In this document: positions 455 through 37,200 of the stretch, one piece after another
Position numbering within the stretch: position 1 is the stretch's first letter
Layout of the letters: the number at the start of each line of letters is the position of its first letter
Assembly: GCA_021464415.1 (NCBI GenBank)
Contig: CM038465.1
Coordinates: forward strand, 25,740,990-25,804,989
Reading direction: 5' to 3'
DNA: 64,000 bases
From: Lonicera japonica
Lineage: Eukaryota > Streptophyta > Magnoliopsida > Dipsacales > Caprifoliaceae
The notes under the pieces: model-generated
Database searches by the model: none
What the model was told of the DNA's origin: nothing
What the model saw: the letters and a program-made list of their open reading frames with translations, nothing else
Program-made: the position numbers and the translations under genes

Positions 455-1890
455 TAATAAATTTTAATATATTCGCAAGAGCACGAATTAGTTTATAGTT
501 TAACATGTAAGCGAAGATGATCCGACCTAGATTCAACATTAAGTTTTATAATTATCTCGTTAATTTTTCACTAATCTCCTAATCTAATTAGAAAAGTTTA
601 TGGTAATTAAACATATTAAATAAAGCAAATTAAATAAATCAAAGTAATGAAAGTAAACTAAAGTAATGCAAATAAATTAAATAATATTAAGAAATATAAT
701 TAAATTAATGAATTAATTAACTAGGCTTTCGGATTCATATATTTCATATCATCTTCCTAAGTATTCATGCGCAAACATTATACTCTTGTCTCGTAATAAT
801 TTGGTCTCTCGACTCTATTATTTGCGAAAAAAAAACCATTCAATTTTAATTAATTTATAAAATTTAATTATAATTCTTCCACAACCAAACTTATGTGTAA
901 AATTAAAACACTCATTATATTCGTCAAAGTATACCCTATATCCACTCTTAATAAATCATAAGGTGATTCCAACAAAAAATAATGAGAATCCAACTTGATT
1001 TTTATGAATTAAAATATGCTTCTAATAAGAAAAATTGTATTTAATATTAAAATAATAAATTGGTAGAGTTAATTTGTATGAACACGTACAGTAAAATTAA
1101 TTAAATATACTCATCATAACCCTAGTACAAATTTATAGTAGTATAAACTAAATTAAATAAAAAAAATTATTTGACATTAATTAAAGAAATTAACTCTTCA
1201 ATCTTTAAAAAATAAAAGAAAAATGAATACAAGAAAATTAAAGAAAATAGATGAGAGAGGAGCACGGCGTGCACACTGTTGTGTACGGCTGCCCCTTGAA
1301 TTGCACAATTGTGTGCTTTTTTCTTTTTTGGTTCCCTAAAGGGTGTTCGGGTCACCTTTCGTGCACCTCGATTAATTTCTGTTCGCGGTGCGTGGCTGCC
1401 GCTGGCTAAGCATTATTTTGACAACCCCACGAATCGATATTAGAAGCTCCAAGTCGACTTTAAAGTTATCCTAGTAGCAGCCTTATACCACCGGACCATG
1501 CTTTTATAACATATGTGCTTAAAATTCTACTCGAACTAGGAGTAATTGATGGGCTTGGCTCATTTGTGATTTTAGAATGCTTTAGTAGTTTTTGGGCCCT
1601 CACTTTAAAGGCTATAATTATTAACTTGGGCAATCTGCTGAATGATTGGTGGGCTGCAACACGGCTAATGAGTGGGCTTAGATTTGGGCCTATACTGAGT
1701 ATAATTAATTTTTGTTTTATTTTTAATTGTTGTATTCTGTGTCATAATTTTGAAGTATGAGCTAGCTAAATTTGAAAAAGTACCGAATTGTTAAGTTGTA
1801 GTTCTCAAAATTATCTTTAAATTAGGGCCACAAATTGAATGATTTAAAGTTTTGAGCCAAAAGTTATGGGTCTAGAGATATTGAATTATT
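455..1890 (+). repeat. Dispersed ~1.35-kb repeat family, copy 1 of 3
   Basis: The sequence from about 455 (an ATAAATTTTAATA... start followed by 'cgcaagagcacgaatt') to about 1890 lines up with 53541-54803 in the same orientation and with 43694-45063 in reverse. Shared landmarks are a GTAAGCGA(G/A)G(T/A)TGATC block near the start, a 'cactaa..ctaat' run, 'ggtctctcgactctatta' near 810, and a terminal stretch 'aatttgaaaaagtac' near 1770. No open reading frame is conserved between copies, so this looks non-autonomous. The class is not recognised. The far end present in copies 2 and 3 (ACCAATTTCTTG-type) is missing here, so this copy is probably truncated. Confidence 0.5.
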
Positions 1891-1923
1891 TTAGGGGCCG
1901 TTCACTTGGCACTTAAAATACTA

Positions 1924-1958
1924 CTTAAATATGAAAAATTAAAATTTTCATATTTAAG
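1924..1958. repeat. Perfect 14-bp-arm hairpin
   Basis: The arms CTTAAATATGAAAA and TTTTCATATTTAAG flank a short AT spacer. It sits in a 1.9-2.45 kb AT-rich stretch that otherwise shows only low-complexity sequence and may be part of a MITE. Confidence 0.5.
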
Positions 1959-2798
1959 TGACTTAAAATTTTCATGTTTGGTAACCCAAAAAATTAAGTG
2001 ACCACTTAATTTTTATCACTTAAAACTTAAAATTTTGTGGCAACTTCACAACTTAAATTTGAAACTTAATTTTAAAGAGTGTAAAATATTCATTTTACCC
2101 TCTTTCTTTAAACAAAATTACATAGCAGTCTCTACAATCACCGTTGCCACTGGCTACTCCACAACCACTACATCCACCACCACCTCCTCCTTCTCCTCCA
2201 CCATCACCACATTCTCAATTCCATACCCCGCCCAATAACACCAATAACTAAGTTTTAAACATTCTGCATTTCTGATTTCATACACGCATTTATATCTACA
2301 CACACGCATATATTTACATTGACATATATTATATATATATTCATGAAACTAAACAAATAATATTTTTCATATATAATTTTTAGAATTAAAAAAAAAACTT
2401 TTTTAATTTTCAATTTTTAAATTTTTTTATTAATCGCCACCTTAAATTTCTGGCTACATTCAGCCAAAAATAAATCAATGCGCATTAGATCTGTGCATCA
2501 TATGGTCATAAAATTTAAGAGATTTTGTAAGGTTTTGACCAAAAATCTCGTACTTAACTAACGGCTCTTTCAACTCAATTTAACAACAGGAGAAGGAGTC
2601 ATTCGCACATTATGAAGGAAATCTGAGAGATTTATTTAGTCAAACACTGGTGTTCAATCAATCAAACAATTTGTTCATTAGAAAATTGTATTAGAATGCT
2701 GTTCGAATCTGGAAACGAACAAACCTCAATCTAAGAGGACTAAAATCGCAAACTCAAACCTAGATTTGATGGAGGAGAAAAAGGACGAAGGAAATTGA

Positions 2799-2945
2799 AT
2801 GGATCTGGAGGAGGAGAAAAACGGTGGAGAGTATCAGAGCATGGTGGCCTCGTCGTTGATGAAGCACGCAGAGAGAACGGTCGCCGGAATAATTCGCGCT
2901 AGAGCCTTTGGCTTGAGAGCCTCGTGCTCTTATTTCTCAATTTAA
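2799..2945 (+). CDS. Small 48-codon open reading frame, unknown
   Basis: An ATG at 2799 opens a 48-residue frame ending in TAA at 2943-2945, with a second in-frame ATG at codon 15. It is clearly more GC-rich than its surroundings and reads as a purine-rich 5' end (MDLEEEKNGG...) followed by a basic, alanine/arginine-rich stretch (...ERTVAGIIRARAFG). A short upstream frame starts just before it near 2770. It could be a first coding exon of a split gene, a captured gene fragment in a transposon, or chance. No family is recognised and no downstream exon was identified. Confidence 0.22.
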   Translation: MDLEEEKNGGEYQSMVASSLMKHAERTVAGIIRARAFGLRASCSYFSI

Positions 2946-4900
2946 TTTTTTTTTAAAAAGAAAATTGAACAATTATTCCAACGGAATTGCAATTATTTAT
3001 CAAAATTGGAGCCGTCAGTAATTTAGGTAAATGGTGTAGTGATGTATCTCTTTTATTCTTATGAATTGGTTTACTCTGACTTTGTTTTCTCTGTTGGTGG
3101 TTCCATTATTTTGCAACATAATATGTTCTTTCTCCCCTTAGGTTGATGGTAACTTAATTATTTTTGTTTGAAGAATTGAAGTTAAATAAGTATGCTCATG
3201 TGTTGTTTGATGAAATGTCGCATAGAAATAAATTATATGGGGATTTACGTATTGATCAATTTATTCCCTCTTAGATAGCGTTTTACTCGTTTCTTCTTAA
3301 GCGTAATTGGCAGAAAAAACAAGGATTAAGAAATTGGACAAAGCCATCATGTGTGCTACTACTAGAGCAGTCACTAGTCTTCACTTAGATACACTATTAC
3401 TTGTAGGCTTTTAAGTATTGCTGCTACAGCCTTTTAAGCCAAATGATTTTAGGCATAATAAGCCATCTTTGAAGTTGGTATATACATATATATATGCTTT
3501 GCAGTTTAAAATCTATTTTTGTATTAACAAAATCTTCTAATTACCATTTGAACTATATTCCTAGAGTTCTCTGTTTTAGATTCTCGATTGTTTGGGGTTG
3601 GATTGGAATTCTTACCGTGGGCTTGTCCTTCGAAAAAAGTAAATAATTGGCTAGGAGAAGAAGTGGACTTGTTGGCCTCTTTACAATAAGCCTAATATGG
3701 TAATCAATGGCTGTGAATTTCCAATTCCCTTGGCCTTAACCTTTGGTCTCAAAATGTGCAAATGCCTTATCTGGTCTCTTAGTTTTACAAGAAGTGACAT
3801 TCTGTATGTTTATGTGCTGCCTTGCCTTTTCTTATATACAAGATTTATATGTACTAATGGTCAAATAGACATCGTTTTCAACTATTAGTCTAATAAACCT
3901 TATTTTATTCACATGATTTGACGGCTTAATGACAAAATTACAAGATATGATGGAAACCCGATCAAAGGAAGAGGGGGTGCCATTACTTATTTACTCTGGA
4001 ATTCTTGGCTGAGTACTTCTTCAAGAACCTGTTGTTCTTGTTCCAAATATTTATAACATTACTATACCAACAAGCTCTTTAGATCTAAAGATTTTCTCTG
4101 CTTGCACACGTACACCAAAACTCGAGCAAAGTCTACACGAATTGGGTCATTGTGACTCGTTCAACGCTACACTATTACCCATAATAACCTCTCTTCGTTC
4201 TTGTACACATTTATTAGGTGATATTTCACAAAACGTAAAATTCAATACTGATTATATATATATAAGAACACTAGTGCACCTTATGTTTTTGGAAATGAAT
4301 TTGATTGTGTTTGCACGCTATGGTGTATTTGGTGAAATTCATGGTTAAGTCGTGGAAGGAATATATGCATTGCACAAGTAATAACATTCTGCTAGTCCCC
4401 ATCCACTTTTCCTTGCTCCATACAATTCTTTTGATTTTAATGATATGGACAAGAGTCTTAAAGTCTACTTGTACTAATGTTATTTCATGCTCATATAAAC
4501 TTGTAGAGTTGTTCGTCATATCCTAGATAGATACAAAGAACACGGAATGTCTAAAGGGAATTTTGATAAAGCTTAAATCTCTCGTTGCACATATATATTA
4601 TTGAAAATCAATTCTAGATTTGATGTTGAAAACTATGTGCATCACAAAAGCAATAAGAAGCAACAAGATTTTTTTAGTATAGTTATTGGAGAAGCAAGTA
4701 CTGTTGTTAATCTTCCTTTTGTCCAGTAACTAGTCTTTCACGTCTCTTGCCCTTGCAAAATATTTCTTAGAATTAAAAATTCTAGATACCAGCATGACAT
4801 AGCGAAAGCTAAGCAAATAATGAGGAGAAGAGTCCTACATACATATCGTCTAGACATATTATCAAAGGCTATTAAGCCTACAATGCCAAGAAGACTTACT
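2946..4900. other. Intergenic region downstream of receptor kinase gene 1
   Basis: AT-rich sequence without a supported gene. The short frames present have no domain-like composition and no codon bias. The last part lies just 3' of gene 1 and probably includes its 3' untranslated region. Confidence 0.4.
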
Positions 4901-4945
4901 ACAATGTAGTAGATTAAGTTTGCATAAGAAAGCTAATTCAACAGC

Positions 4946-7900
4946 TCAACTAGTTGCGCTGATCTCGAGGAAAGATGAAGATGATGATGTCCCGTGATCC
5001 ACAATTGGTTCATTTGGTGGACAATAAGTAGGCTTCGGAGGCACTTGCAATAACTCGGCCTCCCCTTCAAGCATTTCCAACACTTTGCTCATGGAAGGAC
5101 GGTCCACGGGCTTCAATTGTATGCACCAAAGTGCAACTATAGTCATCTTCCTCACTAGCCTTTTCAATTCTTCAGTTGCATCATCCAACTCCATGTCCTC
5201 TCCTTGATTAATGCGGTCGTAAATCCACGTGGGGAAGTATATCTGGCTCGAGTGCTCTGCAAATGCATTCACATTTTTCCTTCTCCCTACCATTTCCAAC
5301 AAAAGCATACCAAAGCTGTAAACATCAGCCTTATACGAGACACCTCCAATGTGTTTGTAAAAAAACTCAGGAGCAATATATCCCAACGTTCCCCGTGCTG
5401 CAGTGAGAGAAACGATGCTATCATCCGTTGAGTACAATTTTGTTAGACCAAAGTCTGAAATTTTTGGGACAAAGTTCTCATCAAGAAGAATATTGTGGGG
5501 TTTGATATCAAAGTGTAGAATTTGCATGTCACAGCCTCGGTGTATGTACTCAATCCCTCGAGCCACTCCAAGTGCAATATCATACATTCTCTCCCAACTC
5601 AAAGGGGCCTTATTTTCTCCTTTAGAGAAAATAAACTTATCTAGAGAACCATTAGGCATGAAGTCATAGACAAGAGCTCGTTTTGATCCCTCGGCGCAAT
5701 ACCCAAAGAGGTGGACCACATTAACATGATGAATTCGTCCTATGGTGGCAACTTCATTAATAAAATCTTGTCCATTGGCTTTTGATGACTTTCCAAGTAA
5801 TTTTATTGCTACAAGATGGCCACTTCGAAGCTTTGCTTTGAAAACAGACCCGTATCCTCCTTGACCTAATTTGTCCTGGAACCCTTTGGTCATCTCCTTT
5901 ATTTGGGAATACGAGTACCTAATTGGCATGAAATTATTGTGACTTTGAAGGAAGTTCTCGATTGTATCATCTACTGACAAGTGTCTTCGTCGACATCGGT
6001 ACACCACAAGTGCAATCAAGCATGGTATGCCTATAGAAGCCCTTGCTATGAAGAATATGAAGAATACACCTAAGTTTACAAGAAAATCGCGTACAAGTTA
6101 GCAAATAATGCAGACTATAGTTCTTAAATAATTTTCAAGTGATTAATTTAGCTACGAATATCAGCTTAGATGATGCAAGTGGCCGGTTAACTAATATGTC
6201 CTTTAGCTTGTATGCTTTATCTACGTTTTATAGCGAGTCTTAGTCTTCCTTCTGAAGTTTTTCAATGATTTATCTCTCCATCCATCGAAGCTGATAAAAC
6301 AGAGTGTAAGTGCTAAAAATATGAAAACTCACCTATCGTTGCGTAGATCTCATTCCCGTATCCTGGTAGAAATAGCAAAATTCATATTAAGTAGAGTAGA
6401 TAATAGAAGACAAAATGTTGATGTCACTTCCTATATGTAGAGAAAGTGAGTAAAATTAATTAAAACTCACTTATGTCCATGAAGAACCACTTCCAGTGTC
6501 CTGAAAAAATTAAAAAGAAAAAAAGTTAACAATCAGGTACCAATCGGCGCTTAAAGGCGTACTAGTTTGCATTTTGTTTTTCAGGCCATCATTCTTGAAG
6601 ATCAATTGATTTTTAGGGAGGTTATTTCTTTGTAATCCCAATGATATTTCTTAGTAAAAATTACTCTTTTGATTTAGAGTGGCAGTATGACTCAGCTTAT
6701 AATGTTAACACCTTGTATAATTATGTGTCTTGTTTAATAGATCTCTATAATATTATCAATTTATAGATGAACAGATATCTATGATAAAAGTTACAAGATC
6801 TCAAATTAAAAAGTATAATATAATGAAAGAATGAGTGAATATTACAATATCACATTGTTTGACTCTCTTACAATGAAAAGAAAAAAAAATTCTTTTGAAT
6901 TTTTTGAATTTTATCAAGGATCGTGTTAGACCTCGTACTAAATTAATGCAAAAATAATAATATTATGCCCAAGGGCACAGCCTGTACTCTATAACTAATA
7001 GAGGAGGGCCAAATAAGCACACAATTCATTCTTTATAATTTTTTTTGCCACCTTGCACGAAGGTTGAGTCCTTCCCTGAGTGTCACCATTGTACTAGAGT
7101 ACGGCAACGTGATACTCTAGGAGTATTGCAAATCTTCTTAAAAAAATGCCTTCAAATCCACTCAAGAAACTAAGGCCGCTGATGTACATATATCTACAAC
7201 TCTAGGTCTCTTCCATAGGTCACCCCTTTTGTGTAGATGATCGGAATACCTGATATGGTGACTGCTCTATACCAGTTATCATGCCCATCATGTTGCGATA
7301 ACGGGAGCAATTGATCTAGCCCCAAACCACAATTATAACCCGAGAAATCCCTTTTGATAATTTCCACGAATACTAGGCAGGTGGAATTTCGACTAGCAAT
7401 AGGACCAATCAACCAAGCACGCAATCGACACACAATATATACGCAACTATGAATAAGTGATAAAACATACGATAAATAGCAAGCAAGAGAATCAAGAAAA
7501 CACCAAGACATAAGGTGGGTACCCAAACTAGGTCTTCCACCTGAAAGGGGAGATCTTTATTGATTAAAAGAAATTCGGAACTCAATATTCAATCACTTTC
7601 ACCGATTAACAGAACAAACCTCCAATTGATCTTACCCTCTCAAACCCTAGCTAGAAACCCTCACAAGAAACACCTCTTGTAAGATAATCGTAAACCCTAG
7701 TTTTCTCTCTCTACATTCTGATACAAGCTGTACTACTTCTATATTACAAAATAGAAATTAGCCTATCTATTTATACAACTGAGAAACTTGAAAACCTAAT
7801 GAGGTTTGGGCCATCGCGTCGCCGCTACCGCTTACTAATATGACCTTGAACTGGTCTATACCGGTACGCCATATGACAGAACTTCACCTGTTGAAAATAA

Positions 7901-23656: not shown

Positions 23657-25388
23657 CTAGGCGAGAAATATGTTTCCTTATCAAATTTGGTTTCCTTGTT
23701 TATGTTGGTTTCTATTGCCTTGTTAATAGTTTTCATATTTACGTAGAATTGTTATTATCTTATTCTGAATTGGATGGACTCTATTATATAGTTATATATA
23801 GATAGAATCATTCAAAAGATTAAGGTACAATAGAAATATTCTTGTTTCTGTGGGATTTGTAGGAGAGTTCATCTTATTGTGAAAGAGAGGTTAAAGGGCT
23901 GTTGATTTTCTTCTTCTGTGAGAGTTTTGAGTGCAATAATTCTTGTGATAGATTTTGTAATCGTTTTCAAAGAATTAGTGAAATCTTCGTTTGTTGAATA
24001 TTGTGTGTTCTATTATCTATCTTCTTCCTTTTTCTCATCCTTATTATCTCTAGTTATTAATATCTACTATTTGAATTACGATCCGTGGGGTGATTTATTG
24101 TTAACAATCACAACATATATTTACAAAAACTTCTTCTCAAATATATATATACACATATTTGCGAAGCTTAGGGTTAGATGGATTCCCAAGTTTACTTCAA
24201 TCAGTAACCACAAAAACCATATATACATATGTTATTTTAGTTTGATGAACCTAATAAATGTGTGCGAGATAGTTACAAATTGAATAATCAAAACAAAATA
24301 AATATAAGAAAAGTATATATTAGAGCTCAAAGTGATCTAGACACAAGTCATTACTCTTAAAAAAATATTTTTTGGGGTGGGCATAGTTGTAAGATTTATC
24401 GTTTTACTTTGTAAAACGACTACTTAATGCAATTCAATTATTGTAAGTCCGTTGATTTTCTCTATGGACTATGGTTTTGACTAGGAAGGGGAGAAAAAAT
24501 CATCCCCAAAGTCATTATAGACATGATTTATTTTTTGGGGAGGGCATAGTTGTACGTTTTATCGTTTTTTCTTTGTAAAACTGCTAGATAATGCAGTTCA
24601 ATTATTGTAGATCTGTTGATTTAAAATTATATCTAAGTTCGTTCAAAGCAAAAAGTAAAGTCAAGTAAACAAAAAAAATACAACTTAGAGCCCTGCTGAA
24701 AGGCAACGAAAGGTTATAATCAAAATAATTTTTTGTTTAGTATTTTAGGATGGATTGTCTTATATAGCCCAGTTTCTATCTTTAATTTAATTTTATATAG
24801 TTATATTTGGTTTAGTTCCTTTTATGCTTGCTTGTAAGTAATCATATTTCCTCATTAATTAATGAGGAAAGTGTAGTCCCTAAAGAGGTTGGCAAGTCAT
24901 TATTAGTGCAGAAATTTATTATAATACGATTTTGTAAAGTCTTTATGGTGGATTAAAAATTTAAAAGTAACTGGCCCTAAGATTAATTTTTTAGGGGAAG
25001 ATGGAAATGAATTTCCTAAGTCATTATTGTAGAAAAAAAAATTTGGGAGGGTGGTTCAAATAATTTTAGCTAAGTCTAAACGAATTTTGTAAGTCTCATC
25101 ATGAGTGTGGAAATTATTTGAGGCAATTAGATATAAGGCCACATTCCAATAACAACATAATTATAAAGGCCAATTATAAATTAGCATTACAAATTAAGGA
25201 CATTACATAAAAATGACAATAATGCCCCTTCCTTATTTAACTAATAACACACTAAACCTAATATATATATAACTTCTCACTTATTCAAAAACCAGTTGCA
25301 ACCAAATCCAAGTTGAAAATTTTCAAAATCCACAACGATCGATCATCAGAACCACTTAGCACATCCTGGGTGATGTGTGATGACAGGG

Positions 25389-25463
25389 GGTGCTAAATGC
25401 ATTTAGCACCTACTGCTTTGCTGTCAAATGTGCTAAAAGTTGGTGCTAAATGCATTTAGCACC
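25389..25463. repeat. Left subterminal pair of GGTGCTAAA palindromes
   Basis: Perfect palindromes occupy 25389-25410 and 25442-25463: arm GGTGCTAAA, core TGCA, mirror arm TTTAGCACC. They lie 270-345 bp inside the left end of the Mutator-like element. Single half-motifs (gtgctaaaag, ggcaccc, ttagcacc) surround them. Confidence 0.9.
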
Positions 25464-25559
25464 TTCTGCTGAAAGAAGCTTTTGGCACCCTATGTGTGTT
25501 AAACACAATGCTGTTGAAATCGTTTAGCACCACTGCAGTTTCTTACTAAAAAATTGATA

Positions 25560-26632
25560 TGTTCTTGTTGATTGTATTATTGATAGGTATGTTCCCGTTA
25601 GCGATGGCTGTTGTCGACTCGAAAAATGTTGCTAATTAGGAATGGTTCTTAAATTATCTGAAGGTTATTGTCGGAACGTATAAACAAATAATGTTTATTT
25701 CTGACCGACATGTTGGCTTGAAAAATGGAATTCCTAAAGTATTCAATGATTCATTCCACGCTTATTGCCTTTTCCACTTGAAAAAGTACTTCATATCAGC
25801 ACTTCCGAAAAGCTTTAGGAAAAAGAAATTAGCAGTGCAATTGTTCTCGAGTTGTACACATGCTCGTACGGTTGACGAGTATATGGAGCATTATCGAGAC
25901 CTCGTCATCCTTGTGGGGGAAACAATGAATAAATTCTTAAAAAGTGCACCCGTTGAACATTGGGTAAATGCATTCTTCCCGGGGAGAAGGTACAGTGTTA
26001 TAGCTTCAAATATGGATGAAAGCTATAACTCCTGGATTATAAATGAACGTAATCTGTCAATTACAACAATGCTAGACCAAATTCGGGTGAAGGTAATGAA
26101 ACAAATGTCAGATAGGCGAGAGGCGTCGAGGTGTTGGAAAAATGAATTATGTCCGTCTTTCGAAAATAAACTAAAAGATAAGGCCACCGAGAGTTCCTCG
26201 TGGACGGTGACTAAATTTGATGATACGCTGTATGAAGTTAGAGAGCAAAAGACTTACCGCGTAGATCTTAAAATATGGCAATGTTGCTGCAATTCCTGGT
26301 GCATTGATGGTTTTTCGTGTTCCCATGCTGTTTTGAGCATACTCACAAATAATAAAAATATTTACGAATACATTGATCCATGCTTCTTAGCAGTCAACTA
26401 GAAGAGCTCGTTCTCCAAACCAATTTATCATGTTCCAACTTATGGTCTGAGTGCTAATGTATTGGCAAATGTAATAGAGATATTAGCTTTAGATTGCAAC
26501 ACACAGCCTGGTCTACCAAAAAATAATCGATTCGACACAAACACTTCAAGTACGAGGAAGAAGCGAAAGTGTGGAAGGTGCAACAAGTATGTTTATCACA
26601 ACAAGAAATTGTGCAACGAGCCTATTGCTTAA
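25560..26632 (+). pseudogene. MULE (mudrA-type) transposase, C-terminal part, broken
   Basis: The readable part starts inside the catalytic DDE domain. The conserved FPLAMAVVDS stretch (from about 25590) is followed by an in-frame TAG where this family normally has a tryptophan, then EWFLNYLK, then the uninterrupted segment 25691-26401, beginning FISDRHVGL with the second catalytic Asp. It ends in a SWIM zinc finger (CCCNSWCIDGFSCSHA; C-x-C...C-x-H type). A further TAG at 26399-26401 is followed in the same frame by the usual C-terminal tail and a cysteine/histidine knuckle (CGRCNKYVYHNKKLC) ending near 26632. The N-terminal half of a normal transposase is absent: only about 440 bp lie between the TIR and the DDE remnant. 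The gene cannot make an active enzyme. Confidence 0.85.
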
Positions 26633-26889
26633 AAATAGTGCGGAACATGCATACATAGTCCTTACAAAAAAATTATTCATTGCTAGTAGTCCTATTCTTA
26701 CAATTTCTCTTTTCTGTTAGAAAATGTCCTAAAATTGTTTAAACACATTTTTATTGATACTGAATATTTCGTATAATTCCAATATTTGTACCATCAGATA
26801 TACTTCTTCTTGTATGTTCGCGATTTTTGTATGTTCAAAAGAAGCTGCTAAATGACTTATAGCACCATCAGATTCCTTCTTAGCACCTT

Positions 26890-27345
26890 CTGGTTTTTTT
26901 TTTGTGATGTGTGTTAACAGGGGGTGCTAAATGCATTTAGCACCTTCTACTTTGTTGTAAACTGTGCTAACAGGGAGTGCTAAAGCATTTACCACCTCTT
27001 GGAATACATTTAGCACCTCTTGGATTTTTTGTGATGAGTGCTGACAGGGGGTGCTAAATGCATTTAGCAACTCCTCTTTTTTTTTTGTGCTATAAACTGT
27101 GCTGACATGAGGTGATAAAGCATTTAGCACCTCCTGGAATACATTTAGCACCTCCTGAATTTTTTGTGATGTGTGCTGACAGGGGGTGCTAAATGCATTT
27201 AGCACCTCCTGGATTTTTTGTGATGTGTGCTGACAGGGGGTGCTAAATGCATTTAGCACTTCCTGCATTTTTTTTTGGTAATGTGTGCTGACAAGGGATG
27301 CTCAATGCATTTAGCACCTACTGGATTTTTGTGATGTGTGCTCAC
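26890..27345. repeat. Minisatellite array built on the GGTGCTAAA palindrome
   Basis: About seven to eight tandem units of roughly 50-65 bp each consist of 'gtgatgtgtgctgacag', a palindrome (arm GGTGCTAAA, TGCA core, mirror arm) and 'tcctggattttttt'. Perfect or near-perfect palindromes start at 26923, 27053, 27185 and 27239. The minus-strand frame through this array only reflects the repeat period and is not a gene. The array separates the 3' ends of the two convergent genes of the element. Confidence 0.85.
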
Positions 27346-27615
27346 AGAAGATTCAACATATTAAACAACCGGTGTCAAAAAAAGACTTTTAATGTGAAGA
27401 AAACTTAACAACAATGCTTACAAATATCACTAGTTATCAAAATTCTTTCACATTTTCCACTTATATATATATCAAATATTCACAACTATAATTACAAACA
27501 TACTTACAAAAAATATCTAAACATCAAATTCTTTCACATGTTCAACTACAAATGTTGTAGCGTCATCAATAATTGAATTAATACTATCACTGGAACCACC
27601 TCCTTTACCGGAAAG

Positions 27616-30600
27616 TTAATAATCAACTCCTTCCTCAGCAAGTTCCTTTGTAATTCTTTCGGTTTCAAGTTCCCAGTTATGATTCTTATCACACAACAAC
27701 TGATAAGTAATTTTAGCTATCTTTATTTGTATCAATTTTACGTCCATAGCTTTTGGAACTTCTTCACCCCGAACAAGTCTCTCAAGAAATTCACAAACAA
27801 AAAGTGCACAATCAGGACTGCAAAACCACATAAAAAACATAGAAACAATCATCTTCAAGTTTTCCAAGAATTAAGATACCAAAACAAAATTTAAAAGCAC
27901 TAGCCTAGCAAAAAATACATAAAGTTCAAGGTGATAAACTTGTTTTATAACAAATATCAAAACAGACAAACTAGCAGCAATAGAAAAATAGGTTTAGCAC
28001 CATTTTTGACCCGAAAAAGAATAACTAAATCATATAGGGCTAAAATGTCCAAAAATAGAATGGTACAAAACCTTTTTAACACCATCCAATGCTACACATC
28101 ATGGTGCTACATTTATTTTTAGAACAATTTCTATGGAACAGAGTAACTGGTGCTGAAACAGATTAGCACCCGTCAAACATCAAGGTACTAAACTCAGCTT
28201 TTTTTGAGATTGTAAAGTACTCACTCTTCAGCTTGTTGCACGCACTCCGCCCTGATAACCTTGGTATCCTTCACCTTCAAATCACCACGAGCATGTAACA
28301 GTTTCATTACAGCTTTCTTCAACATAAATCAAATAGAAACCAATATTAGAATCATTATTGTCAAACACTAAGTGTATTGAAAAATTTTCAAAAATACCAT
28401 ATGTACAGCCTCCTCATAGTAATGATCCACTAGCTTCTTTGATTGTCTTCCCCATCTTCTTAGTATCATCGTGTTGTAATGAGTCCATCTTAAACTGGGT
28501 AAATTAAGGACAAGAAGGGTCCAGTGATACCCACCATTGTCCCCAAGAGACCTGCAGTGATTCATTGGAAACATAAGATATTTTGTTTCCAACGGCATTT
28601 TCATTATGGGAGCTTCAAGAAGATCCTTCAAAAACATATCAATTTTATCCCGTACACCTTGCTGCGTAAAAATAAATAAATTATTTACTTAGCATCTAAT
28701 ACAACACTAAAAACCATTCAAAATAGCATAATATGTAGGAGAAAAATATTACCCATGCAGAATAAGAAAAAATTATAATATCTTCTTTTTGCAAATTCTT
28801 GATACGTGCGTAACATACTAATCGATGATCTGCATTCATAGAGAGCAGATTTAGTAAAAATACTCTTAGATTTATGAAGAGAAAAATCATAAGATTAAAG
28901 TTATTATAATCATACCTGCCCATTAACAAAGTAATTGCACATTAAATCTTCAAGAAGATAGCTAGATATGAACATTGACAAATGATAACTTTTCCGAGCC
29001 ATGGAGCTGCACCGAACCGAAAAAAAGTACAAATAAATGATTTAACACCAAATAAAACTGCTAAAACACTTTTAGCACCCAATTTTCTCCATAACAGAAT
29101 AAGTAAATCACATGGTGCTAAAAAATCGAGCACCAACAGTGAACAAAAGATAATCAAAATGAAGGTGCTAAACTGAAGGTGCTAAAAGGTGTTTTAGCAC
29201 AAAATGTGAACAAGTATTAATAAAACTAAAGGTGCTAAACTGGTTTAGCACCAATTTTCCAGCAATGGGTTGGTGCTAAAACACTTTTAGCACCAATACA
29301 AAACAATGTACAAAGAAAATCTCAAAAGAAGAAAATAAGTAAATCAGATGGTGCTAAAAGGTGTTTTAGCACAAAAAGTGAACAAGTATTAATAAAACTG
29401 AAAGTGCTAAGCTGGTTTAGCACCAATTTTCCAGCAATGGGTTGGTGCTAAAAGTGTTTTAGCACCAATACAAAACAATGTACAAAGAAAATCTCAAAAA
29501 ACAAAATAAGTAAATCACATGGTGCTAAAAGGTGTTTTAGCACCAAAAGTGAAAACTATTAATAAAATTGAAGGTGCTAAATTGGTTTATCACCGAATAC
29601 AAAACAAAGTACAACCAAATTCAAAATAATACATATGATTTATTTGCCTCCGTGAAAAATTTCTCCACAACCTCCCTTTCATTCGGATCCAGAAAAACCA
29701 TTATGTCTTTCATTTTAGACAACGGTAAGAATTTTCCAGCACCCTCATCATCGGGAGTTAGGAACTCATCAACTTCAATAACTTCTTCTTCAGTTAATGG
29801 GGGTTTAACTTTTTCAACTTCCTTCCCCAACTTCTTGTCAGAATAAACTTCCTTAGATGAATCAAATCAATATTCAAGTCAAATGTTGGGAAGTCCTCCT
29901 CCTTCTTTTCTTCCACTTTATGCTCTGCACTCTTATTCAACATTTCTTTGTCAATAACCTTCCAGCATCATTTTTTCAACCTCCACCTCCACGTCCTCCT
30001 TTTCTTCCCATCCTTTTTTCTTCTTCAACTTCTTCTTCTTCTTCTTCTTCATCCTCCATATTATATGCCGTCCTCTTCAGATAGTAATATTCATAATTAC
30101 TATCAATCTTTGCCTTCCTTGGCTTTGCTTTCAGCCTTATTATAAAAGATCTCGTCTTCTTCTCTTCACCCTTATCCTCTTCACTTATTTTTTCTTCCTT
30201 CGAGGGAGTTTCAAACTGTAAATCTCCCCGCACCCCAGAACAAACAAGGTCAACAAACAAATCAGGGTCATCTTGCTCCGGTTTATCGCATAAAACGAAC
30301 TCCAGCTCAATAAGTTGCTTGTGTTTGTTCAGTCGAAGCATCAATTCAAGCTCTGCAACCCTGTTTTTCAATGCTTTTATTTCAATATCTTTCTCGTCCC
30401 CTTGTCCATCTTTCACCGATTCTGGCTCTGCCCTCTCACCGCCAACATCTTTATTTGTTGGACCTTCTTCCTCTGCCTTGTACCATTCTATCGCCTTCAG
30501 ATCCGTCCTTAGCGTACCCGTATTATCCGAACTCAACAATAATTCTTCCTCAGGAAAAATATTACAAATTTCTTTGGATACCTGGATTATAAAATAAAAA

Positions 30601-31839
30601 GAATGTAAAAAAATAAAAAATTAACCATAAAAGCATATAAAAATTTGTTTTCGTTACCTTGGATGCATCTAAATCTGCCAGCTCAAAATCAAACAACATA
30701 CGCTTTAATACATTAATGTTCCACAGAACAAATCTAGGCGTCTCATCGCTCTGCCCACTATAGGGCTGAATGCCTTTATAGTGTTCACAAAACCAAAACT
30801 GCAATTACAAAAATCCAAACATCAATTGGTGCTAAAATAGATAACTTCATGGTGCTAAACCAGTTATAGCACCAAATGGGACAACACTTCAATGGTGCTA
30901 AAACCCTTTTATCAAAGATAGAAATAGACAACATACAAAATTTAAGGTGCTAAAACAGACTTAGCACCATTTTGTAAATATAATTAAAAATAAATAGACA
31001 AAAATTAAGAAACTTACAAGCAACTACACAACACACCCGGGGGTCCGGATGGGATCTTTGTAATGTTTCTTGACTATTCTCATCAAATGGTCGTGTATAA
31101 TGGTAGCCCACTGAAAATCAGCTACTTTGTCCAAATCTTCAATGCAAGGCACAAAACTTAAAGAAATTGTCCTGTTTGAGTTAGCAAAAAAAATAGCTAC
31201 TAAAATGTAGAGTATAAGGCAGCGCGCAAAATCCTCCTCGCTGCTATCTTCTACAACGGCACTATGTACAGCCGCAAGATGTGTAACTTTCAATGTCGAT
31301 TCGCCCCTGAATCACCTCTTAATAAATTCCGAATCACACACGGATTCGGATGACTGCAAAAAAAACCTCCTCCCATGCTTTGGCAATCCAAATGTAATGG
31401 ATACATTATCGGGGGTTAACTTCACTGCCTCCCCGACAATTAAAAATGCATCCTCCTCCTCCGAATAGGCAAAAATAGTTTTCTTACCTGCCTGACCAAT
31501 CATTCCGACGTGATTTGCAATAATTTTCTCCTCAAAAATGGCCTTGAAAATACCACCAAAAGGAGTCCTCATCGTCACTCCAATGTGACACTGTCTAATG
31601 TCACCACGAGACTTCATCCGAGCAATTTCATCCACAATTGATACAAGGTTGCATTTAAACACGGTTGGTCTGGAAGATTCTTTCCCATAAGATTTATCAA
31701 CCCTCTATCCTTTCTTTACAACTTTCTTAACAGATTTTGGCTTTCTTTTCTTGCCATTAGATTGCCTATCATTTCTTTTCCCCTTGGAAGAAAAACTTTG
31801 TTCCCCAACATTTTTCCTTGAACTACTTGTAGTCATCAT
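27616..31839 (-). pseudogene. DUF1985-like / Ulp1-like C48 peptidase gene of the Mutator-like element, decayed
   Basis: Read on the minus strand, an ATG near 31839 opens a lysine-rich, NLS-like start (KKRKPKSVKKVVKKG) ended by an in-frame TAG near 31700. In the same frame 31662-31024 encodes a region with a TPDNVSITFGLP motif and a later SFVPCIEDLDKV block, resembling the DUF1985/plant-mobile-domain part of Mutator-borne proteins, interrupted by a TGA at 31309-31311. Further exons are about 30804-30660, 30539-29976 (acidic, coiled-coil, ending in a Glu run) and 29830-29621. The Ulp1-type part lies at 28637-28368 (GYHWTLLVLN with catalytic His near 28525; Asn, not Asp, in HYNT), then an exon ending at 28225 (GA|GTGAGT) that splices in frame to 27817 (TTGCAG acceptor), giving the catalytic-Cys motif DPDCALFVC. 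Exon limits are partly inferred. Proteins of this kind are known from KAONASHI-type and VANDAL-type MULEs. Confidence 0.7.
29040..29600. repeat. Intronic array of GGTGCTAAA palindromes
   Basis: At least seven paired motifs occupy an inferred intron of the Ulp1-like gene, for example 29231-29252, 29272-29294, around 29350, 29409, 29442 and 29521. Cores vary (CTGG, ACACT, AGGTGT, AGTGT) while the arms stay constant. Two ~170-bp sections (about 29200-29330 and 29370-29500) are near-duplicates of each other. Confidence 0.85.
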
Positions 31840-31919
31840 GCCTTCTACACAATTAATATAAACCTTCATTATCACTGTTATCATTATATATATACATATA
31901 TCTAATTAGCATACACACA

Positions 31920-32640
31920 GGGGGGCTAAAACATAAGGTGTTAAAATAGCTTAACACCACATGAGAACTAAAAAACTTAAGGTGCTAAAACAGTTTAGCA
32001 CCTATCCAATGGTAACATAAAAGGTGCTAAAACAGTTTAGCACCTATCCAATGGGAACTAAAAACATAAGGTGCTAAAGTAGTTTAGCACCACAAGGGGA
32101 CTAAAAACATACAGTTTAGTACCACAAGGAACTAAAAAACATAAGGTGCTAAAACAGTTTAGCACCCCATCTAAAGTCTAAAACTACTAGAATGAACACA
32201 TTTGAATACATGAACACAAAATCTCAAAACAAAAAAATCAGAAATATGCAAAAATATTGTTTCAACTTAAATATACAAAACAACTTAGCACCAAAATGTA
32301 CAAAACATAAGGTGATAAAACAGTTTAGCACCACATCCAAAGTCCAAACTACTAGTATGTTCAACAAAATCAAAGTAAAAATGTGAATTCAAAACACATA
32401 AGTAACCTAACCATATGCAAAAATGTGATTTCAACTTAAAAATCAGATGGTGCGAAAACACATGTCCAAACTAGAAATGGTGCTAAAATCATTTTAGCAC
32501 CACAAGGGAACTAAAACATAAGGTGCTAAAACAATTTAGCACCCTTCCAATGGTACACATCAAGGTGCTAAACTGTTTTAGCACCATTTCTATAAAAACA
32601 AAGTAAGTATTAAAATGGTGCTAAAACAGTTTAGCATCCA
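31920..32640. repeat. Right subterminal array of GGTGCTAAA palindromes
   Basis: About ten paired copies upstream of the Ulp1-like gene include 31981-32002, 32023-32044, 32070-32091 and 32145-32166, then others near 32311, 32478, 32522, 32564 and 32612. The usual core here is ACAG, unlike the TGCA core at the left end. They are spaced by 'taaaaacataa'-type filler. Confidence 0.88.
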
Positions 32641-33500
32641 TCCAATGTCTAAACTACTAAAATGTTCAACAAAATCTAAGTAAAAAATTTGAATAGATGA
32701 ACAAAGTCCAACAAATGAACACAAAACTCATCACCAAAAAAGTTAAAAAACACATCAGAAACCTAACCATAAGCAAAAATGTGTTTTTAACTTAACATAA
32801 ATACAAAATAACTCAATGAATACTCGATTCAAAGCATTAACAAAAATAAATAACCAACGAAAATTAAACAATGAAATAACAGAAGAATGAACGCGTACCT
32901 TAACTAAGAACTGAAGCGACGAAATACCACAAACGAGTAACGAAAACAAGAACAACAATGAAGAATAAACTGAGACCATGAATATAAACAATAACGAACG
33001 TGTTTAGAAAATATAGAGAGAGAAAATTTTGATCGTCTAGATAGAGATGAAATTTTGATCGTGCTGCAATGGTAACAGACGGGGGATGATCGTGCTAGCA
33101 TGCATGGGAAGAGCGAAGGTTTAGCAGAACTTTTATTAGGGGCATTTTTGTCCATTAATATTTCTCATAATCCTTAATATAAAATAACATTATTAAAAGT
33201 GTCCTTAATTTACAATTAAATAATGAAATTAGTCCTCTTTATTTTTGTTCAATATGAATTCGTCCTTATAATAATAAAACATTATATAGTGGGGCCTTAT
33301 AACCCATTTTCTCAAATTATTTCTGGTTGAATGTGAATTCCACATCTTTGAATAGATTATATTTACAAAAGCTTCTTGTCAAATATATATATACACATAT
33401 ATATTTTCCAAAGCTTAGGAATGGATGGATTCCTAAGTTTACTTCAATTAGTAACCACAAAAACTATGTATATATACATAAGTTATTTTAGTTTGATGAA

Positions 33501-34200
33501 TGATACGACCTACGGTAATATCGCACGAAACCCGTAAACACAACAAATTAGTTGTGCGAACCTTGACACAGATACACACGAAAACAGTAGCAAATTAATG
33601 ACCCGGATCGCTTCTACAATCAGATTCTGGTGGAAAACAAAGACACCACAATCGGGTGTAAAATACCGATTAATAAGTCGGATGAATGCCACGGACAAAC
33701 CGATAAGTTCAAGTAGTTCGTGAAGAACTAAAGAGAATTAAGTCACTCAATATTATTATGAATAAAGTCTTAGATGATAAAATAAAACAATGAACCCCCT
33801 TTAAATAGGTAGACGAAAACTTGGACAACAAGAAACCAATCCAACAAGGAATCCTCAAAACAAATCCTAATCAAACAAGAACTAGTCTTTAAAAGAAACA
33901 ATAACAATAATAAATAAATAAAAGTGTGTGGGCTGGTTTGACTCCACATCTTGGGCCGCATAGACATGGTCTTCTCACTCCAATTGGGCTTGAATAAGTG
34001 TAATCCAGCCTCCATTTTGTGCTCCACCTTTTTCCCCTCCAATAGGCTTGATTATGCCTTCTTCTTGAGCCCGAATAGCTTGAATTAATCCATTAAGCTC
34101 TGCCTTTAACTTCTTAGCCCGCGACCTTGTACTTGGGCCTGTTAGAACTTGGATGGCCTTTGAAGTGTCTTCATTTTGCACAACAGCCTTGCCTCCATCA
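33501..34200 (-). repeat. 3' LTR of the Gypsy element
   Basis: This 700-bp LTR has TG...CA ends. It is the left copy in the window but the 3' LTR of the minus-strand element. It matches 39727-40421 along its full length with scattered substitutions. Confidence 0.93.
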
Positions 34201-34213
34201 TTCCCCTCCTCTT
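34201..34213 (-). other. Polypurine tract
   Basis: On the minus strand AAGAGGAGGGGAA directly abuts the 3' LTR. It is the expected plus-strand DNA primer site for reverse transcription and overlaps the stop codon of pol. Confidence 0.85.
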
Positions 34214-37200
34214 AAAAAGGATTTGCCCTCAAATCATCACTGGCATCAAACGAACTTAAGTCAGCAATGTTAAAAGTAGCGCTAACGTTGTACTCTCCTA
34301 GTAGGTCAAGCTTATAAGCATTATCATTGACGCGTTCAAGAATTTGAAAAGGTCCATCTCCTCTAGGATGTAGCTTAGAACGACGTTGTTCCGGAAATCA
34401 TTCTTTCTGCATGTGCAGCCATACCCAATCTCTAGGTTCAAAAACCAGCTTCTGACGTCCTTTATTCGCCTGCTTTGCATATTGCTCCGTCCTCCTTTCA
34501 ATATTGAGCCTTGCCTTCTCATGGATATGCTTAACAAACTCAGCCTTTTTCTTTTCATCAAGATTAGTATATTGAGAATAAGGTAATGGAGATAAATCTA
34601 ACGGAGTCAAAGGATTAAATCCATACACAATTTTAAAAGGTGAAAATTGAGTAGTAGAATGAACAGTGTAATTATAAGCAAACTCAACATGCGGTAAACA
34701 TTCCTCCCATGTTCTAATGTTCTTTTTAATGATAGCCCTTAACAAAGTAGATAAAGTTATATTCACAACCTCAGTTTGACCATCAGACTGTGGGTGACAA
34801 GTAGTAGAAAATAATAACTTAGTTCCTAACTTACACCACAAGGTCTTCCAAAAGTAGCTTCAGAATTTAGTATCTCTATCTAAAACAATGGTCCTAGGCA
34901 TACCATACAATCTCATAATTTCTCTAAAGAACAAATCAGCAACATGAGAAACATCATCGGTTTTATGACATGGAATAAAATAAGCCATTTTAGAAAATCT
35001 ATCTACGACCACAAAAATCGAATCTCTACCATTCTTAGACCTAGGGAAACCCAAAACAAAATCCATGGAAATATCTATCCAAGGTTCACTAGGAATAGGT
35101 AATGGTGTATATAAGCCATGCGGTTGCACACGGGACTTTGCTTGCCGACACGTAACACATCTTCCACAAATTCTCTCAACGTCTCTTTTCATACGTGGCC
35201 AAAAGAAGTGTTCTTACAAAATATCTAAGGTCTTAGCAATCCCGAAGTGCCCGTCAAACCTCCCCCATGGGCTTCCCTCACTAACAAGTCACGCATAGAG
35301 CAATTAGGCATACATAATTTATTCTCACGAAATAAAAAACCATCATGCCTAAAGAACTTACCCACTGCGTTTTTCTCACATGCTTTATACTCCTCACAAA
35401 AATCAACATCAATTGGATATAATTCCTTTATATGCTAAAACCAAGCAATTTAGCATCAAGGGTAGAGATTAACACATACCTTCGCGAAAGCGCATTAGCA
35501 ACAATATTTTCTTTACCTTGCTTGTACGGAATGACATATGGGAATGTCTCAATGAACTCCATCCAATGTGCATGCCTCTTATTCAGCTTATGCTGGCTCC
35601 TCAAATGCTTTAAAGACTCATGATCGGTGTAAATCACGAACTCTTTAGGCCAAAGGTAGTGTTGCCAAGTTTTCAATGCTCTAACCAATGCATACAATTT
35701 CTTATCATACGTCGGATAGTTCAAGGCTGCCCCACTCAATTTCTCGCTAAAGTAAGCAATTGATTTTCCTCCTTGCATAAGAACAGCCCCTATTCCCAAA
35801 CCCGATGCATCACACTGAAGCTCGAATGATTTAGTGAAATCTGGTAATGCAAGTACGGGCGCATGGGTCAACTTCTCCTTGATCAATTGGAATGCCTTCT
35901 CTTGTTTATCCCCCCATTTGAATCCCACATTCTTCTTGATCACCTCCGTCAACGGCGCGACTATGATACTAAAATCTTTCACAAACCACCGGTAAAAGCT
36001 AGCAAGTCCATGAAAACTTCGTACATTCCCCACAGTTGTAGGACTCGGCCACTCTTGTATTGCACGTACTTTCTCCTCATCAACTTGTATACCTTGTGCA
36101 CTCACAACAAAACCAAGAAAGACAAGCTTATCGGTGCAAAAAGTGCACTTCATCATGTTAGCAAATAACTTTTCTTTTTGAAGCGCATCTAAAACTGATT
36201 TTAAATGCTCAACATGATCCTCCAAGGTTTTGCTATAAATCAAGATATCATTAAAGTAGACAACAACAAATCTGCCAATAAATGCACGCAAAACATGATT
36301 CATTAATCGCATGAAAGTGCTCGGTGCATTAGTTAGCCTAAAGGGCATCACTAACCATTCATACAAACCATGTTTAGTTTTAAAAGCAGGTTTTCATTCA
36401 TCTCCTTCTTTCATTCTAATTTGATGATACCCACTTTTTAAATCAATTTTAGAAAATACACAAGCTCCATGCAACTCATCCAAGATATCATCTAAGCGAG
36501 GAATAGGATGTCGATATTGTATCGTTATATTGTTGATGGCTCAACAATCAAAGCACATTCTCCACGTCCCATCCTTCTTAGGCACTAAAATCACCGAAAC
36601 AGTGCATGAACTCATTCTTTCTCTCACGTGCCCTTTCTCCATCGGTTCAGACACTTGCCTTTATAACTCCTTCGTTTCCTTTGGGTTGCTCCGATGATAG
36701 GTTGGTCTGTTTGGAATGGTAGCGCCAGGAACAAAATCAATTTGATGCTCAATCCCTCTAATTGGCGGTAATCCATGTGGCATCTCGTCAAGCAAGACAT
36801 CCGCATAATCCTAAAACAAATAACCAATAGAACTAGGCAAAGACGAGTTAAGTTCATTAGTATTTAAATATGCCTCCTTGTACAAAAGCACAATCATCGG
36901 CTGCCTCAAATACAATGCTCTTTTAACTTCACTCGCTCTCGCATAAAAGTTCTTTTGTTTTCTCTTTTTCTCATTTTTTTCAACTTCACTCTTTTTCTTT
37001 TCCTCTATTTCTCTCTTTTTGTCACTCTTTTTCTTTTGCTCACTCTCTTTTTTTAACTCATTCTCTTTTTTTTGGTCACTCTCCTTTTGCAATTTTAATT
37101 GATCTTCATACACTTGCTTCGGTAACATAGGGACAAGAGTAATCGTCTTATGATTGAGCTCAAAAAAATATTTGTTGGTGAATCCATCATGCTTCACTCG

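Follow-up and report, generated by a model that had tools for sequence, protein, structure and literature searches.

A Mutator-like element (MULE) of Lonicera japonica raises the question of which protein, if any, reads the palindromes that crowd its non-coding parts. The element lies in a 64,000-bp stretch of contig CM038465.1 (assembly GCA_021464415.1, positions 25,740,990 to 25,804,989), hereafter the window, and besides its transposase it carries a minus-strand gene in which DUF1985-like and Ulp1-like exons are predicted to be joined. Two DUF1985 proteins, VANC21 and VANC6, are described in PMC5735166 as acting on short motifs that lie outside the coding parts of the VANDAL family to which each belongs; VANC proteins remove DNA methylation and evolve with their motifs through tandem repeat formation. 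The original prediction saw in the minus-strand gene a VANC-like factor and in the palindrome its binding site. Having compared the element with its relatives in the same genome, we consider it probable that the palindromes are binding sites of the family's predicted DUF1985-Ulp1 protein, which would counter methylation silencing as VANC does for VANDAL; the argument is built on sequence comparison.

The predicted excess of the motif over shuffled sequence was evident, as GGTGCTAAA was matched 52 times in the window, where shuffled sequence led one to expect 0.66. Fifty-one of these fall within the 8,194-bp element and one in the other 55,806 bp. With cores of 2–8 bp and at most three mismatches in total, 37 palindromes were found in the element, 15 of them exact, where about 30 had been estimated by eye. 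Every core measured 3–6 bp (4 bp in 22 palindromes, 5 bp in eight, 6 bp in four, and 3 bp in three), and shuffling the element 200 times under a first-order Markov model produced no exact palindrome. Their placement in the non-coding parts, clear of the coding segments, also proved correct: no half-site (≤1 mismatch) was detected in eight hand-picked coding pieces of the window element. When own-type half-sites were counted in 13 elements, 513 fell in 79,935 bp of non-coding DNA vs. three in 48,465 bp of coding DNA, the latter being defined as tblastn-matched stretches.

These 13 elements are the window copy and twelve 10-kb regions taken from the genome (886 Mb, 967 contigs), in which 150 matches of 2,098 candidates were scored for the transposase and 150 of 792 for the DUF1985 exon. 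Family A comprises the window copy, L045, L046, and L056, family B consists of L047, L048, and L051–L055, and family C of L049 and L050; the second gene of the B elements is of type B1 in L047, L051, and L052 and of type B2 in L048, L053, and L054. Within the stretches taken, the DUF1985-like exon was visible in 10 of the 13 elements, while L052 and L053 showed only the transposase and Ulp1-like exons, and L055 the transposase with neither part of the second gene. The reference element, L045, spans 11,333 bp (C7:6108745-6120077) and has CTCTTTTTA on either side; perfect 9-bp target duplications were present in both elements tested. Its transposase matches the Pfam families DBD_Tnp_Mut (E 1.2e-15), MULE (5.2e-10), and SWIM (4.3e-5). 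In the minus-strand gene of L045, tandemly repeated copies of a perfect palindrome, GGTGCTAAATGCATTTAGCACC, make up one of the predicted introns. A protein database search returned two homologues.

The motif differs between the families in its letters and agrees in its geometry. The A unit is GGTGCTAAA-N4-TTTAGCACC, B1 is TTTAGTGCAAAA with its mirror, B2 is TGCAAA with variable outer bases, and C is ACTGCAA, mainly after TTC or TGG. In the aligned A, B, and C dyads, TGC-A is common to both ends of an 18-bp frame, and the outer bases differ. Among inverted TGCWAA pairs of the 11 A and B elements (gaps 0–20), a gap of 6 occurred in 186 of 222, this preference being weaker in the window copy (15 of 24, with five at gap 7 and three at gap 8) and in L056 (13 of 32, with 16 at gap 7). 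The C elements, counted strictly as TGCWAA pairs, had few pairs at gap 6 (3 of 11 and 4 of 13) because the sixth base of their motif varies; CTGCAA-N8-TTGCAG, which keeps the same 18-bp register, made up all 39 pairs of L049 and 43 of the 44 pairs of L050 (gaps 0–12). Genome-wide, exact A arm pairs (GGTGCTAAA/TTTAGCACC) numbered 27 with a 3-bp core, 10,942 with 4 bp, 2,778 with 5 bp, and 69 with 6 bp. There were 354 C arm pairs at spacing 8 and none at spacing 9, B1 pairs, counted at the register spacing only, numbered 537, and the reversed-pattern controls gave 0 in every one of these counts. The A half-site GGTGCTAA was found 55–94 times in the non-coding DNA of each of the four A elements and not once in that of the nine B and C elements.

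Such arrays could be self-spreading tandem repeats or sources of hairpins that have no protein reader, the palindrome persisting through the youth of the copies. Their tandem units of 31–32, 41, 52–53, and 53–57 bp and the many copies without a detected gene are in line with this explanation. Nevertheless, it has a very slight chance of being right, since one 18-bp register is kept across families with differing repeat units and flanks, the pair counts drop at cores 3 and 6, and the motif is excluded from coding stretches, which together point to constraint on the palindrome. At a period of 10.5 bp, the helical phasing of adjacent dyads had a resultant length of 0.83 in C, 0.73 in B, and 0.35 in A; it was not relied on because tandem copies are not independent.

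Which of the two encoded proteins would be the reader can be judged from elements whose parts have diverged to different degrees. The transposase exons of L047 and L048 are 94% identical in amino acids with 7.6% change at fourfold sites (105 sites), whereas their DUF1985-like exons share 56% with 57% fourfold-site change (42 sites), and their Ulp1-like exons 52–61% with 57–63% (14–16 sites each). Between L048 and L054 the relation is reversed, fourfold change being 12.9% and 20.7% in the transposase exons and 5.9% in the DUF1985-like exon. Such unequal silent-site distances inside one element indicate different histories, and thus it looks as if the gene and its arrays had been exchanged as a cassette between backbones. 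The 95–96% identity of the B backbones stops at L048:2712, which is 67–93 bp before the first array, and then falls to 67–71%; ahead of this breakpoint, a ACTGCAAA pair near the left end is common to L048 and L052. The dominant half-site followed the gene type in all six B elements that have a second gene, the AGTGCAAA:GGTGCAAA ratios being 18:0, 20:0, and 18:1 with B1 genes and 3:11, 3:9, and 2:10 with B2 genes. B1-like sites were found in L055, where the second gene was not seen in 10 kb. That the dominant motif tracks the gene gives the strongest argument from sequence for the DUF1985-Ulp1 protein, rather than the transposase, as the likely reader.

Subterminal repeats of other DNA transposons are transposase-binding sites, and the palindromes might similarly bind the transposase and pair the element ends. 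There are groups near both ends of the window element (25389-25531 and 31937-32638), and the arrays of gene-less copies adjoin a terminus. However, 24 of the 37 palindromes lie between the two outer groups, and the dominant motif type differs between L047 and L048 in spite of their closely similar transposase exon, which makes transposase binding very unlikely.

Motif copies also occur apart from the gene. Five motif loci without a listed protein match were inspected, namely, the first sites listed (L001–L003) and two hand-picked clusters with 41-bp tandem units (L057 and L058), and all five were similar to the MULE left terminus, L003 in two pieces. The motif had been expected only in elements with the protein, its occurrence in MULEs lacking the protein being named as a ground for rejection. 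This expectation failed for the short gene-less copies, in which the A motif is abundant, although among the loci examined the motif was confined to this element family. We read these short copies as probable non-autonomous targets, a kind of copy that also exists among VANDALs.

The link between gene and motif would be accounted for equally well if the DUF1985-Ulp1 protein bound the palindromes as an ordinary transcription regulator, by activation or self-limiting repression, instead of acting against silencing. Sites are indeed located upstream of the minus-strand gene and in its predicted introns, and plant mobile domain proteins influence gene expression according to the part of PMC7156037 available. 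We nevertheless regard ordinary regulation as unlikely, since arrays are also present between the 3′-ends of the genes and in gene-less copies, where a promoter role has no object, and the characterized DUF1985 relatives demethylate (PMC5735166, in the part available).

The assignment of the minus-strand gene relied on L061, a DUF1985 locus at the Pfam cut-off of 35.1 bits (36.4 and 35.1 bits in two scans). The A, B, and C genes all match this locus by tblastn (E 1e-14 to 8e-23), and its DUF1985-like and Ulp1-like exons stand in the same order as theirs; on account of this match and this order, the gene was taken to be of the DUF1985-Ulp1 type, with the reservation that DUF1985 and the plant mobile domain are not separable here. 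In the Ulp1-like exons, HY is followed by Asn in five of seven loci (L045, L047, L048, L049, and L056); the pattern was unmatched in L046, and L061 has YHMN. The cysteine motif DCAL is kept in all six element loci scanned. The position after HY is presumably that of the protease Asp, and with Asn there the protease activity may be altered or lost. In a PDB sequence search, a 13-sequence profile had no match at E up to 1, and the L061 and L049 exons gave one chance-level match each (E 0.28 and 0.89). PMC8756742 refers to an unpublished crystal structure of VANC21, and a literature search for it yielded nothing beyond this report.

Several observations weigh against a VANC-like reader, to which the motif orientation discussed below has to be added. 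DUF1985 (PF09331) reached 22–23 bits in A and C (E 1.6e-4 and 1.3e-4), below the cut-off, and was not listed by Pfam for the B exons scanned. On the same exon, the plant mobile domain gave E values of 8.6e-6 in A, 1.3e-7 in B1, 1.2e-5 in C, and 2.2e-3 in B2, all below the cut-off, and outscored DUF1985 in five of the six relatives' exons scanned (L045, L047, L049, L051, and L054), while the window piece and L056 gave DUF1985 the higher score. The Ulp1 peptidase family C48, scanned for in the A and C genes, scored 13–16 bits in their later exons against a cut-off of 20.7. MAIN and MAIL1, plant mobile domain host proteins, are needed for silencing. Modeling by AlphaFold2 of the window DUF1985-like exon with two homologues gave no usable fold (pLDDT 31, pTM 0.18). 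Even the well-preserved L045 has a stop in one small predicted exon. As for the motif, only the A code is exclusive and the B and C codes overlap: ACTGCAAA occurs 5–16 times in B1 elements, 6–11 times in B2 elements, and 50 and 57 times in the C elements, which also contain 20 and 23 copies of AGTGCAAA. The arrays grow by tandem duplication, so the counts are not independent. Of the first 50 sites listed with a 4-bp core, which share one contig, three have a listed protein match within 8 kb, thus most of these A-type sites are in copies without a detected gene. Finally, L061 has DUF1985 and Ulp1-like exons at 1201-5561 but neither a motif array nor a transposase match in 7.5 kb. It had been tried as a further family and was set aside for want of arrays; a DUF1985-Ulp1 gene alone does not imply arrays, and the locus serves as a negative control. 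The proposed reader thus retains the presence of a DUF1985-type gene, the non-coding location of the motif, and the tracking of the gene by the dominant motif type, and it loses the support of Pfam scores above the curated cut-offs for DUF1985 and C48.

Taking the palindromes as targets of the DUF1985-Ulp1 protein, the system would operate as follows. Better-preserved members of the family would encode the protein, which would bind the two-fold symmetric unit as a dimer or a symmetric pair, as the dyad symmetry suggests; host DNA methylation would be countered and the silencing of the element lost. The gene and its target arrays would form a cassette exchangeable between transposase backbones, and short gene-less copies would be targets served in trans, which would be the only role left to the window copy. 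More tentatively, and with somewhat less than even confidence, we propose an anti-silencing cassette of a dimeric reader and fixed-register dyad arrays with family-specific outer bases, which is swapped as a unit, so that the specificities of reader and target change together in one step.

The copy in the window is itself defective, as it has in-frame stops in the DUF1985-like exon, and a tblastn search with the relative L045 found no match in it to the first transposase exon. Its predicted ends (25120-33313) were right, with AAATTATTT on either side, and its terminal inverted repeat (TIR) is weak, 18 of the 24 outermost bases being alike. PF10551 (MULE) at 25640-26401 (E 4.7e-5) and PF09331 (DUF1985) at 31024-31311 (E 7.5e-5) were matched below their cut-offs. 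An inverted twin lies about 0.58 Mb off on the same contig (G000:C3:26345363-26351038, corresponding to 25640-31311 of the window) and is 99.6% identical over 3,760 bp and 100% identical over 3,285 bp. The near-identity includes the outer flank, which indicates a segmental duplicate or an assembly effect rather than transposition. A direct repeat of about 143 bp with 86% identity (24116-24249 and 33358-33500) encloses the element and about 0.9 kb of its left flank, and minus-strand frames at 33770-36393 resemble, by eye, a Ty3/gypsy polyprotein.

Table. Features of the window element, in positions of the 64,000-bp window
Feature	Position	Strand	Remarks
Left target-site duplication AAATTATTT	25111..25119	+	perfect 9-bp match to right copy
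Whole Mutator-like element, family A, degenerate copy	25120..33313	.	9-bp target duplication and weak terminal inverted repeat
Palindrome group, left subterminal region	25389..25531	.	3 palindromes, 2 exact
Second transposase exon (MULE, Transposase_mut)	25571..26629	+	87.5% identity to L045 (tblastn)
Palindrome group between convergent genes	26844..27318	.	8 palindromes, 2 exact
Ulp1-like exon with DCALFV cysteine motif	27523..27861	-	64% identical to the L045 exon; sub-threshold PF02902 match (E 0.069)
Degenerate palindromes, predicted intron between Ulp1-like exons	28062..28170	.	3 palindromes, 2-3 mismatches
Ulp1-like exon with HW motif	28341..28679	-	69% identical to the L045 exon; sub-threshold PF02902 match (E 0.015)
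Palindrome array, predicted intron before Ulp1-like exons	29057..29594	.	10 palindromes, 4 exact
Charged middle exon, same predicted minus-strand gene	30060..30605	-	63% identity to L045 exon (tblastn)
Palindromes, predicted intron after DUF1985-like exon	30851..30968	.	3 palindromes, 1-3 mismatches
DUF1985/plant-mobile-domain-like exon, in-frame stops	30988..31881	-	63% identity to L045 exon (tblastn)
Palindrome array upstream of minus-strand gene	31937..32638	.	10 palindromes, 7 exact
Right target-site duplication AAATTATTT	33314..33322	+	perfect 9-bp match to left copy

PMC5735166 leaves it to future work to establish which part of a VANC protein recognizes the target. One genome with three families of aligned dyads gives defined half-site positions and spacings, and pairs of elements whose main differences lie in the reader gene and the arrays amount to a swap already made by nature. 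If readable, such a code would also allow DNA methylation to be removed at chosen loci.

Among known systems, the plant mobile domain proteins resemble the present one in that the DUF1985-like exon also matches their domain; MAIN and MAIL1, however, are encoded by host genes and not by an element, whereas our gene is enclosed by the termini of a Mutator-like element. The word Mutator is absent from the plant mobile domain literature compared (PMC7156037 among it). Closer are the KIU/Kaonashi elements, non-TIR MULEs whose VANC genes carry Ulp1 and for which hypomethylation through family motifs is reported (PMC13317346); the reverse orientation of Ulp1 is described in PMC2528002. As in KIU/Kaonashi, a single predicted gene that runs against the transposase has a DUF1985-type exon followed by Ulp1-like exons, and the differences are the Ulp1 scores below the Pfam cut-off and the Asn after HY. 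With Ulp1-carrying VANC genes already described, the fusion to a protease-like domain, which the original prediction had taken for a distinct variant, is not one. The palindromic form, claimed as distinct as well, fared better, since the inverted dyad is unlike the one-orientation VANC21 sites in a comparison made without the KIU motif forms.

The likeness to VANC/VANDAL extends to the Mutator-like element with degenerate termini, the DUF1985-type gene, and a short motif of non-coding parts that has grown by tandem repetition and differs between transposase-related families. Non-coding element parts are also targeted by RNA-directed methylation (PMC10398659, in the part available). VANC21 sites are YAGTATTAY in one orientation, and the VANC6 motifs AGTTGTCC and AGTTGTAC occur as tandem repeats (PMC5735166, likewise), while here inverted dyads of one register share a TGC-A core; the single orientation is reported for VANC21 and is not shown to define the VANC family. 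A further difference is DUF287, for which no match was listed in the pieces scanned. The word stem palindrom is absent from the available text of PMC5735166 and PMC10398659, and a literature search combining VANC with palindrome showed no title on VANC among the 20 listed of 168 papers, a weak result as the term also fits vancomycin. An inverted, fixed-register target thus appears new relative to the available parts of the VANC literature compared, the KIU motif forms lying outside this comparison. From its sequence, the system seems to be the same in kind as VANC/VANDAL, from which the inverted fixed-register dyad and the apparent exchange of cassettes distinguish it.

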